Positions 22,698-56,766 of a DNA stretch of 64,000 nt are shown piece after piece. Made by a program: the position numbers and the translations under genes. The stretch comes from Parasaccharibacter apium. Lineage in GTDB: Bacteria; Pseudomonadota; Alphaproteobacteria; Acetobacterales; Acetobacteraceae. The DNA lies in assembly GCF_002592045.1 (NCBI RefSeq), contig NZ_MEJG01000001.1, forward strand, positions 1-64,000, read 5' to 3'. Under the pieces are notes generated by a model that saw nothing but the letters and a program-made list of their open reading frames with translations, had not been told where the DNA came from and made no database searches. Position 1 is the stretch's first letter. Each line of letters begins with the position of its first letter.

Positions 22698-23021
22698 TTA
22701 GTGCTTCGAATTTGCATCCGAAACGCCCGTGTTGGACGGTGCGCCAGCAGGAGCTTCCGGTGCAGCAGGAGCCGCCGGAGCTGCAGAAGGCTGAGACTTC
22801 TCTAAGGAAGCACTGTTCAGGTCATCAGTAGCCTGCGGAGCTTTACCATCTTCCTTCTTCTGACCATGCTTCATGTTGCATTTTTTGCCATGATGATGGT
22901 GATGAGCACCAGCGTGATGCGCATGGTGGGCCGGAGCAGCAGACTCATCAGCCGCAAAAGCAGGGGCAGCAGCCGCTGTCAGACCGAGCAGAGCGATAGC
23001 GGAAAGAGATAGTTTCTTCAT
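22698..23021 (-). CDS. Small His-rich secreted protein, unknown function
   Basis: 107 residues. The signal peptide is clear (MKKLSLSAIALLGLTAAAAPAFA, cut after residue 23; cited as a whole only to locate it). The mature N-terminal part is histidine-rich (HHAHHAGAHHHHHGKKCNMKHG) with one cysteine, which suggests metal binding. The C-terminal half is low complexity, rich in Ala, Pro and Ser (AAPAAPAAPEAPAGAP), and ends in H. GAGGAGG precedes the ATG at ideal spacing, implying strong expression. A 26-base dyad lies upstream. It is monocistronic, with its own terminator. No family recognised; copper, nickel or zinc binding is inference. Confidence 0.8.
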   Translation of the reverse strand: MKKLSLSAIALLGLTAAAAPAFAADESAAPAHHAHHAGAHHHHHGKKCNMKHGQKKEDGKAPQATDDLNSASLEKSQPSAAPAAPAAPEAPAGAPSNTGVSDANSKH

Positions 23022-39813: not shown

Positions 39814-39823
<10 letters not shown>

Positions 39824-40296
39824 CCTTGCGGAGAAAGAAGCGCGAGCGCGAAGCCAATCACGCATAAAATGCTGCTAATCACCCGTACCAGGAAATAACC
39901 GGGCGGGAAGTCACCATACCGATTTGCGAGTCGCTCTAATAAGATGAGGCTGAGAAAGCCCCCTATTTCCAGCGCAAAACCTATTTTTAAAGAGCCAGAG
40001 GCCCCAACACCCATGGCCAGCCATCCCCATAAAAACGCAAAACCTCCTAAAAGAATCGCCCGCTTATCGCGCAGGCTTTCCCCTTTTGGGAGGATGATGG
40101 TGGGCTTGCAGGCTAAGAAACCCCAATTCATCGCCCCATAAAAGGGTAAGAGACAGCCCCCATACGTAAGCAAAACAAGCGTTAAATGCGGTAGAGGCAT
40201 GACAATCCCTGCCAAAAAGAGCCAGCCGCCCATTAACAAAGGCAGAACACCGCCAAGCACAATAAGCATGGCTGCCGTGACAGGAAATTGTCGCAT
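39814..40296 (-). CDS. DUF3429 membrane protein
   Basis: 160 residues with about five hydrophobic segments (near 8-30, 38-56, 83-100, 108-122 and 138-155) and few charges, an inner-membrane protein resembling the DUF3429 family (function unknown). GGCLLPFYGAMNWGF is the most distinctive stretch. It lies on the opposite strand between kdsA and eno, two genes that are often neighbours in alphaproteobacteria, and its 3' end overlaps kdsA. Confidence 0.8.
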
Positions 40297-42591: not shown

Positions 42592-44379
42592 TTATTTATC
42601 ACCAAAATCATCCAACGAATCATAATGGTCATGCACAACATGATGCCGAGCTGAACCTTTCTTCCCGCCCATTCCAGCATGTTTATGGGACGGATGACGC
42701 CGCCCAGACGTAGCATGAGGCATAGCCACCCCAACTGTCTCGGAGAGCTTGATGACATCGCCCTCCCAATCATATCGACTGGCCTGATGAGGCCCAGCTG
42801 CGGGCCTATAATGCGGCATCGGAATAGGCCTCTGCATTACAGTAGAATCCCGCTCATACCGCGCTGGTTGTTTGGCACTCTCTTGAAGAGAGGCCCCTCG
42901 TACCTCATGAACCACCTTAATATTACCATCTGGACGAATAAGCGTGAACGTCCCATCCCCATTAGGAATAGACACCGTCCCCGGGGCAATCGCCTCAGCT
43001 GATGCAGCCACTTGCTCATGATGACGAGGGATGGACGACGATTTAGCACCGCCAACCCCCTCATCAAAATCATTCCCTTGACGAACAGAAGGTGTAGAGC
43101 TGTCCATCTCTTCAGGAATCACAGAGACGGCAGGCGGATTATGCGACAGGCCATTAATAACGGTATTCTTATTGGATTCATGCAGAGGTAACGCCCCTCC
43201 ACCCGCTGCAAAAACAGCAGCAACGTCATTATTATACCGACCAGAACGAGCCGAAGGCGGAGCCACTGTCGGTTTTCTATCCTGCCGGGGCACTTCCTTC
43301 TCCGCAACCGGCTCTGGCGCAGAGGGAACAACAATCGAGGGCAGCGGTGGCAAGGTAGCCTCATGTGTAGCCACTTCTTCACGGTGCGTAATAGCGGCCT
43401 CATGCGGGCTAGAAACAGGCAGTGCAGAGGCAAACGGCATCGTCTTAACAGGCTGCTGCGGTGCTGGTACTGCCTGAGCTGCCATCTCTTTTTGAGGCAC
43501 CATAGATGGTCGCTTAACTGGTGCAGCCGGTGGCAAAGGAGGGATAACAATCAAAGCAGGCGGCGGTAAGGTAGCTTTACGCACAGCCACTTCTTCACGG
43601 TGCGGAATGACAGCCTCATGCTGCCTAGAAACAGGCAGCGCAGACGCAAACGGCATCGTCTTAGCAGGCGGCTGCGGTGCCGGCGTTGCTTGAGCTGCCA
43701 CCTCTTTTTGAGGCACCAAAGACGGCCGCTTAACGGGCTCAGCCTGTGGTAAAGGAGGGACAACAATCAAAGCAGGCGGCGGCAAGGGGGCTTGTGCAAC
43801 AACGTTCTCTTTATGCCCCTCTTGCTGCGGCGGAATCGTAGCAGGAGACGCAGCTGAAACGGTATGATTCACACTCTTGAGCGCTTTGGCAGATTGAGCA
43901 GCCTCCTGCTCATCCAATGGCTCCAGATAAGCGGAAGCATTATCCTGCACATGCGACGGCAAGGTTTTATCAAGCGGCATTACAACCTTGCCAGAACCAT
44001 AACGCTTGCCGACACCTTCCCCAACCGTTATGCCCTGCCCATCGGCAAGTTGATGCTGCAAATCTGCTTCTAATTGCGGTCTTAATTGATGCCATTTATC
44101 AATAAAATGACTATTAGAGCGACTAACATCCTGCAAGCTAGGTACTGGGTCTGGCTGACCAGGCCAAATATCACCTTCCTCAGGTAAAATAGGCGTCGTA
44201 CTGACCACTTCGCCACGTACACGCCGGGCGACCTCACTCTGTGCATCAGGTGAATTAGGATTACCTAAAGGATTAAACATCTCCCCTGCATGTCTGTCCC
44301 AGCCTGTGCAACTTGCTGTCAAAACAGAGAGGATAAGGAGGCTCGCTCGCTTTATTTTATCTTCTTTGCCCTTTACCAT
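42592..44379 (-). CDS. Proline-rich repeat lipoprotein, unknown function
   Basis: 595 residues from ATG 44379. A basic N-terminus (MVKGKEDKIKR) and hydrophobic core end in the lipobox LTASC, so it is a likely outer-membrane or periplasm-facing lipoprotein with Cys near residue 24. The mature part has a conserved-looking segment (LPEEGDIWPGQPDPVPSLQDV) and then long Pro/Ala-rich disorder with two full 72-residue repeats (199-270, 271-342) plus the start of a third. Near the C-terminus GDGTFTLIRPDGNIKVV stands out, followed by a His-rich end (SGRRHPSHKHAG, ARHHVVHDHYD). A longer start (44478) would bury the lipoprotein signal, so I reject it. A role as a flexible envelope spacer is inference. 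Confidence 0.82.
   Translation of the reverse strand: MVKGKEDKIKRASLLILSVLTASCTGWDRHAGEMFNPLGNPNSPDAQSEVARRVRGEVVSTTPILPEEGDIWPGQPDPVPSLQDVSRSNSHFIDKWHQLRPQLEADLQHQLADGQGITVGEGVGKRYGSGKVVMPLDKTLPSHVQDNASAYLEPLDEQEAAQSAKALKSVNHTVSAASPATIPPQQEGHKENVVAQAPLPPPALIVVPPLPQAEPVKRPSLVPQKEVAAQATPAPQPPAKTMPFASALPVSRQHEAVIPHREEVAVRKATLPPPALIVIPPLPPAAPVKRPSMVPQKEMAAQAVPAPQQPVKTMPFASALPVSSPHEAAITHREEVATHEATLPPLPSIVVPSAPEPVAEKEVPRQDRKPTVAPPSARSGRYNNDVAAVFAAGGGALPLHESNKNTVINGLSHNPPAVSVIPEEMDSSTPSVRQGNDFDEGVGGAKSSSIPRHHEQVAASAEAIAPGTVSIPNGDGTFTLIRPDGNIKVVHEVRGASLQESAKQPARYERDSTVMQRPIPMPHYRPAAGPHQASRYDWEGDVIKLSETVGVAMPHATSGRRHPSHKHAGMGGKKGSARHHVVHDHYDSLDDFGDK
43320..43785 (-). repeat. 216-bp tandem repeat, two copies plus partial third, inside the lipoprotein gene
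   Basis: On the minus strand, unit A covers 43785-43570 and unit B 43569-43354. A third start is recognisable from 43353, where the sequence reads LPPLPSIVV in place of LPPPALIVV. The period is exactly 216 bases (72 codons), so the frame is kept. By eye the two full units differ at about 15 of 72 residues. Each unit holds KRPS(L/M)VPQKE and KTMPFASALPVS. Confidence 0.9.
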
Positions 44380-44478: not shown

Positions 44479-45042
44479 TTATACCCGCATCCGTGCCACG
44501 GTTGCTTTAAGATACCCCGTCCCTGTCAAAAGGGTAGGAATTACAGACAACCAAAGCAATGCCGCGCCAATCACCCCGAAATATCGGGCTATATCATGAA
44601 AAGAATTAATAACCCCTTGCCCGAGGATGAGAAAACCTATAGCGACCATCTGCATCCCTGTTTTCCATTTCGCCAAGCGGGTCGATGGGATGGTCTGATT
44701 CTGAGACGCCATATATTCCCGCAAACCACTAATTAAAATCTCTCGCAGCATAATTAAAATAGCCGCATAAAGGGACCAAAACCGCAATCCCCCCGTCCCT
44801 GCCAGAGCCAACAATAAGCCCCCTACCAAAAGCTTATCAGCAATAGGGTCCATCATACGACCTAAATCTGAGGTCAACCCTTGCCGACGTGCCAAGGCCC
44901 CGTCCAGATAATCCGTCACACATGCCCCAACATAGAGAAAAAACGCAATATCTGCCCATAAGCCACCACCGGCGAGACATCCAATCAAAACCGGGATAAC
45001 AAGAATACGGAACAATGTAAGAAGATTGGGTAGGTTAATCAC
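44479..45042 (-). CDS. pgsA: CDP-diacylglycerol-glycerol-3-phosphate 3-phosphatidyltransferase
   Basis: An inner-membrane enzyme making phosphatidylglycerol phosphate. 187 residues with NLLTLFRILVIPVLI at the N-terminus and the CDP-alcohol phosphotransferase signature in DYLDGALARRQGLTSDLG followed by RMMDPIADK (D-x2-DG-x2-AR-x8-G-x3-D-x3-D). The start is GTG. It lies 53 bases after uvrC in the same direction, a conserved pairing. Confidence 0.95.
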   Translation of the reverse strand: MINLPNLLTLFRILVIPVLIGCLAGGGLWADIAFFLYVGACVTDYLDGALARRQGLTSDLGRMMDPIADKLLVGGLLLALAGTGGLRFWSLYAAILIMLREILISGLREYMASQNQTIPSTRLAKWKTGMQMVAIGFLILGQGVINSFHDIARYFGVIGAALLWLSVIPTLLTGTGYLKATVARMRV

Positions 45043-56564: not shown

Positions 56565-56638
56565 TGGCTGGGAGACCTGGATTCGAACCAGGGCTGACCG
56601 GGTCAGAGCCGGTAGTTCTACCGCTAAACTATCTCCCA
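56565..56638 (-). tRNA. tRNA-Gln (CTG), copy 1
   Basis: A complete 74-base cloverleaf on the minus strand with encoded CCA. The acceptor stem pairs TGGGAGA with TCTCCCA, the anticodon stem ACCGG/CCGGT encloses CTCTGAC (anticodon CTG, codon CAG, glutamine), and the T-loop is GGTTCGAATCC. It is identical in sequence to copy 2, 128 bases away. Confidence 0.95.
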
Positions 56639-56692
56639 AGCGGCACTGTGAGACCGCTCTAAGACGGCCTGCTAAACATAACACCCTCATAA

Positions 56693-56766
56693 TGGCTGGG
56701 AGACCTGGATTCGAACCAGGGCTGACCGGGTCAGAGCCGGTAGTTCTACCGCTAAACTATCTCCCA
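56693..56766 (-). tRNA. tRNA-Gln (CTG), copy 2
   Basis: A second gene, identical base for base to the tRNA-Gln at 56565-56638, with the same anticodon CTG. The 54 bases between the copies are unrelated to the tRNA and carry no gene, so the duplication seems limited to the tRNA, or the spacers have diverged. Both read toward hemN. Confidence 0.95.

Follow-up and report, generated by a model that had tools for sequence, protein, structure and literature searches.

The outer-membrane lipoprotein LpoB contains a long disordered stretch rich in Pro, for which a maximal length of 145 Å is given (PMC4632607). Pal, RcsF and LpoB are all reported to depend on the length of their linkers (PMC12826056). 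We analyzed a stretch of 64,000 nucleotides from Parasaccharibacter apium (NZ_MEJG01000001.1, positions 1 to 64,000; hereafter the window), which encodes a predicted lipoprotein of similar general plan. A long Pro-rich disordered region behind a putative lipid anchor would be shared with LpoB, and a disordered linker with Pal and RcsF, where its length matters. LpoB ends in a globular PBP1B-binding domain, whereas in the window protein a meander of some 25 residues is all that is modelled with confidence apart from one helix, and Pfam did not detect the LpoB domain in this protein or its family. In contrast to Pal and RcsF, no OmpA-like or RcsF domain was detected in the window protein with Pfam; separate OmpA-family genes are found in the same genome (8 matches, 7 over the cut-off). 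Because the domain tests for these families fail, the protein is best read as one that may work like LpoB or Pal, being unrelated to them in sequence, and not as a member of the LpoB, Pal or RcsF families. BamF (DUF3035, PF11233), which we take to be a small lipoprotein of Alphaproteobacteria whose motif looks similar, served as a lead only. This identity was rejected, as no Pfam or NCBIfam model, PF11233 included, matched the window protein at E ≤ 1 and the genome carries a separate DUF3035 gene (G000, C6:42745-43122). Such a gene was present in 11/11 genomes searched.

The 595-aa translation begins at the ATG at position 44379, and an alternative in-frame ATG further upstream would yield 628 aa. 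The shorter form was favored because the lipobox LTAS-Cys then falls at residues 20–24. A candidate lipobox Cys was present in all 27 aligned homologs, in agreement with the original prediction of a lipoprotein; where two such Cys residues were available, as in some Bombella species, the choice was made by alignment. Under the sorting rule of E. coli, a lipoprotein whose residue +2 is not Asp goes to the outer membrane. The window protein has Thr at this position and, of 111 rows counted with duplicates, one has Asp, the rule being that of E. coli, which may not hold in this family. Promoter and terminator counts were at chance level. The features of the locus are collected in Table 1.

Table 1. 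Features of the lipoprotein locus in the window
Feature	Position	Strand	Basis
Lipoprotein gene, 595 aa	42592..44379	-	ORF and translation; orthologs and position after pgsA
Predicted signal peptide, residues 1-23, lipobox LTAS before Cys24	44311..44379	-	sequence; candidate lipobox Cys in 27/27 aligned homologs
Conserved N-terminal module, residues 24-153 (NPN...GDIWPGQPDPVPSLQDV...DNASAYLEP)	43921..44310	-	alignments; omega 0.02-0.03 in four pairs
Pro/Ala-rich disordered spacer, residues 154-465, between AYLEP and GTVSIPNGDGT	42985..43920	-	alignment; Cys-to-element distance; pLDDT
Repeat unit 1, residues 197-268	43576..43791	-	TRF, offset self-match, unit alignment
Repeat unit 2, residues 269-340	43360..43575	-	TRF, offset self-match, unit alignment
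Partial third unit, ~13 residues (about 341-353)	43321..43359	-	TRF, unit alignment
NGDGT..PDG element, residues 467-492, modelled as three-stranded beta-meander	42904..42981	-	family conservation; AlphaFold
His-rich tail, residues 493-595, ending LDDFGDK	42595..42903	-	sequence, composition
pgsA-like gene, upstream neighbor of the lipoprotein gene	44479..45042	-	Pfam CDP-OH_P_transf E 1.4e-34; synteny

TRF detected a single array within the gene (43322..43787, period 216 bp, 2.2 copies, 84% matches). Units 1 and 2 are identical at 182/216 bases (84%) and at 56/72 residues (78%). The best self-match comprised 49/60 residues at offset 72, whereas 500 shuffles of residues 156–460 gave no more than 19. 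The in-frame tandem units of 216 bp, or 72 residues, that had been proposed from the letters were thus recovered by TRF and by the shuffle control. Comparison of the two units gave a dN/dS of 0.125/0.341 (0.37). Since the synonymous divergence between the units is 0.34, against 2.8 (near saturation) for the core between species, the duplication probably took place after the split from strain ESL0385, if rates are comparable. A further tandem repeat in the window (22745..22786, 2.3 copies of 18 bp) has no closed ORF of at least 120 aa listed over it.

The composition of the repeat region (23.6% Pro, 16.6% Ala) and an AlphaFold model (14 sequences, mean pLDDT 48), in which the spacer remains without structure at a pLDDT mostly below 50, bear out the predicted Pro/Ala-rich, disordered body. 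Confident parts of the model are a helix around residues 90–112 and the element, where a block at 469–491 reaches a pLDDT of 80–93 and forms strands at 469–472, 477–481 and 487–491. The same three strands were obtained when the Saccharibacter protein was modelled with the same rows, at a pLDDT of about 70. The end of the protein had been described as basic and His-rich. It is indeed rich in His, with 10 His in the 96 residues from 500 to 595, but it is hardly basic: this region has a net charge of +2 and the last 60 residues one of −1. Foldseek with the low-confidence model returned no match at E ≤ 0.001. A resemblance to wall-binding or periplasm-spanning proteins had also been proposed; domain searches revealed no peptidoglycan-binding domain of known type. 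Weak matches were obtained to Tcp10_C (Pfam, 3/27 family members, best E 4e-4), to CFSR (E 0.007) and aRib (E 0.07) in a single outgroup member, both on its terminal element, and to Sas-4 in a PDB search (E 1.1); these may reflect short glycine-turn beta sequence. A PDB match to 5i4d (E 0.004) was provisionally attributed to low-complexity sequence.

The N-terminal part of the protein was found in 27/60 genomes, namely the genome itself, 9/9 of the same genus, 17/26 of the same family and 0/24 of the same class. A profile of these 27 members was used to look for the conserved N-terminal region in Acetobacteraceae, as the original prediction had suggested, and it matched in 270/299 genomes and 94/102 genera (E ≤ 0.001). 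In a class-wide draw, 4/190 genomes matched, three of them Acetobacteraceae (the window's own included) and the fourth a weak match with an E of 2e-4. The family is therefore largely restricted to Acetobacteraceae. Residues C24, G56, G69, W72, P73, L82 and G474 (window numbering) are invariant in the 27 homologs, and near-invariant positions include N473, G476, T477, T479 and G485. The family plan thus joins a core at the N-terminus (NPN...VWPG..P.P.L.DV) to a terminal element, NGDGT..PDG. The usual mature protein has about 150–210 residues and runs from the lipobox Cys through the VWPG core to the terminal element. The window protein bears all these marks, with lipobox Cys, NPN...VWPG core, the NGDGT..PDG motif at residues 473–485 and a position downstream of pgsA. 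It is thus the Bombella form of a widespread predicted lipoprotein of Acetobacteraceae that has no name. Among the titles and abstract openings listed for Bombella and for lipoproteins of acetic acid bacteria, none describes this protein. A list of Acetobacteraceae signature proteins dates from 2007 (PMC2241609), and the family may already stand on a list of this type.

The position of the gene is conserved as well. pgsA adjoins it in 40 of 41 loci (L001-L027 and L035-L048, several genomes being represented twice); the exception, L023, has no pgsA within the 1.5-kb flank. In all 23 loci of Bombella (genus g1), ESL0709 and Saccharibacter (L001-L010 and L035-L047, with overlapping genomes) the gene follows uvrC-pgsA. 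In seven distant loci inspected, an open frame that looks mobB-like by eye lies between pgsA and the lipoprotein gene in each, and the one that was checked encodes MobB (E 2.4e-50). Elsewhere in the window, a gene for a DUF3429 protein (39814..40296, minus strand, E 1.1e-13) separates kdsA from eno and is convergent with the former, and a homolog occupies the same kdsA-eno position in 13 named loci (L035-L047). A tandem pair of tRNA-Gln(ctg) genes, 54 bases apart, lies at 56565..56766 on the minus strand.

The region after the element was surveyed in 88 genomes of 62 genera, drawn from the better-scoring matches. In 62 genomes (53 genera) the protein continues for fewer than 10 residues beyond the element, a group that counts seven genomes in which the pattern missed the element and one in which the Cys was missed. 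Another 10 genomes (6 genera) have 10–39 residues. The remaining 16, with at least 40 residues, belong only to Bombella (11 genomes), to genus g85, which includes ESL0709 (2), and to genus g125, which includes Saccharibacter floricola and Saccharibacter sp. EH611 (3). Bombella, the ESL0709-like genus and Saccharibacter live with bees, insects and flowers, in acid. One g85 genome (G167; L058 / L124) has a tail of 182 residues and net charge +76, resembling by eye a polycation of histone H1 type, on a predicted lipid anchor.

Within Bombella the spacer occupies two positions. The first candidate Cys and the element were 123–178 residues apart in 77/80 measured genomes, compared with 378 in ESL0385 and 449 in both the window genome and B. 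saccharophila. In these three, a spacer of about 300 aa precedes the element, and in seven other named species of the Bombella group the spacer is C-terminal to it. FastTree analysis of UvrC, PgsA and enolase fragments joined the three with a support of 1.000 and placed the seven in one group with weak support (0.618). Movement of the element itself was also considered, by comparing the post-core sequence of the window lineage (two queries) with the post-element sequence of the seven others. No flanking homology was found, as 273–901 of 1000 shuffles scored as well in 14 comparisons. Therefore, we limit the claim to an insertion between AYLEP and GTVSIPNGDGT.

TRF found arrays in 8 of 14 coding sequences: 2.1 × 216 bp in the window and B. 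saccharophila, 2.4 × 117 bp in B. pluederhausensis, 2.2 × 81 bp in B3987, 6.1 × 81 bp in B. mellum, 4.3 × 78 bp in B. apis, 7.3 × 6 bp in ESL0385 and 2.9 × 18 bp near the C-terminus in B. dulcis. B. favorum, B. intestini, an uncultured MAG, ESL0709 and two Saccharibacter gave no array. Repeat units differ in sequence between Bombella species. The periods of the main arrays (216, 117, 81, 81, 78, 39, 18 and 6 bp) are all multiples of 3, and the C-terminal VYQFDWDK is identical in 7/7 species of the other Bombella group despite their differing spacers; the sequence beyond the spacer is therefore kept in frame. Mature length ranges from 239 to 572 aa within the genus, and the tree neighbors B. 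mellum and B. dulcis (493 and 342 residues) differ by 151. Copy number had been expected to change by recombination. Between species, both unit and number do differ. Variation between strains found no support, as the one other genome of the species that was compared, B. saccharophila TMW 2.2558, is identical in copy number and length, with 7 substitutions in 1788 bases and no indel. The gene thus has 3.9 differences per kb, the eight neighboring genes 2.9–14.5.

Constraint was estimated as NG86 dN/dS in the pairs favorum/intestini, favorum/B3987, mellum/dulcis and window/ESL0385, given in this order. The core yielded 0.003/0.165, 0.015/0.652, 0.026/0.774 and 0.091/2.807 (ratios 0.02, 0.02, 0.03 and 0.03) and the element 0/0.094, 0/0.781, 0.015/0.436 and 0.127/1.165. 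For the spacer we obtained 0.049/0.236, 0.214/0.931, 0.374/1.349 and 0.605/2.058 (0.21, 0.23, 0.28 and 0.29). Tail values were 0.027/0.233, 0.161/0.928, not computable for mellum/dulcis, and 0.707/1.471 (0.48). Hence constraint is tight on the core and loose on the spacer, which stays below neutral between species and evolves rapidly, yet not without restraint. Between repeat copies, the ratio was again 0.37 in B. pluederhausensis, 0.68 in B. mellum (15 pairs, inflated by copy 1, which is out of register) and 0.70 in B. apis (5 usable of 6 pairs). The copies of the B. apis array and the tail of the window lineage are under weak constraint.

The reading we favor, tentatively and at just under an even chance, is that of an outer-membrane lipoprotein with a core and a small element, in which the Pro/Ala spacer of Bombella acts as a flexible tether. 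Lipid on Cys24 would anchor the protein, most likely at the inner face of the outer membrane, and core and NGDGT element, judging from their conservation, would do the work of the family together with a partner. The disordered segment of Bombella would grow by in-frame tandem duplication and let the parts beyond it act away from the anchor, so that repeat number may alter reach over species time. An anchored core, a variable disordered segment and a small folded element with a tail correspond to the plan of tethered envelope lipoproteins, and the AlphaFold models, with an unstructured spacer and a folded element (at lower confidence in Saccharibacter), support a tether. The range of mature lengths is a poor fit to a precise ruler. 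Where the spacer follows the element, as in the other Bombella group, only the tail would be moved from the anchor. Against a tether counts that most family members read lack such a spacer, and that the window-lineage tail (0.48) and the B. apis copies (0.70) are closer to neutral than the spacer. The main rival is near-neutral filler, tolerated low-complexity Pro/Ala sequence added by tandem duplication while only core and element matter. We consider this rather doubtful. The same two ratios speak for it, as do the variation of unit, copy number and insertion side among species, the presence of arrays with units of at least 78 bp in 5/10 Bombella lineages and their absence from the others, and the location of all four amino-acid changes relative to B. 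saccharophila TMW 2.2558 (S376P, D426Y, R433G and H531Q) in spacer or tail. However, the spacer ratios between species (0.21–0.29) and those of the window and B. pluederhausensis units all lie below 1.

Other readings place the function at the C-terminus. A tethered His/Lys-rich polycation could bind anionic polymers, be it peptidoglycan, LPS or extracellular polysaccharide, and would bind them better under acid conditions, which charge His. Among the 16 genomes with at least 40 residues after the element, the Saccharibacter tails carry +10 and +11 with 13 His in 52 aa, G133 +7 with 17 His in 97, ESL0709 +24 in 103 and G167 +76 in 182 residues. However, in Bombella the post-element region is near neutral in 9/11 genomes (−3 to +4, against +6 and +11 in the other two), the negative last 60 residues of the window protein do not fit, and most genomes surveyed (62/88) have hardly any tail. 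We regard a polycation as the point of the protein as quite improbable. Covalent attachment of the Braun type, with the C-terminal Lys joined to peptidoglycan, was mostly rejected and appears extremely unlikely. A C-terminal Lys is present in the window protein and in 7/7 species of the VYQFDWDK group, but ESL0385 ends in Arg. A search for the YkuD family (PF03734) found no member in five Bombella genomes (G000, G004, G006, G008, G009) compared with 6/14 control genomes, which argues against attachment by that enzyme family. Returning to the flexible tether, an extended form is improbable in our view: in acid-living insect and flower bacteria, arrays that arose repeatedly de novo on either side of the element would tune the reach of an acid-charged His/Lys tail from the outer membrane.

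The family, the candidate anchor motif, the architecture, the duplications and the constraint can be read from the sequences themselves, and the finding is real, well defined and lineage-specific. Lengthening a linker by such a repeat is nothing unusual. Less ordinary are the widespread, nameless lipoprotein of Acetobacteraceae, the arrays whose units differ between Bombella species and the two positions of the spacer. Together with mature lengths of 239–572 aa, they offer a natural length series within one genus for asking if selection acts on the length of disordered linkers in the bacterial envelope.
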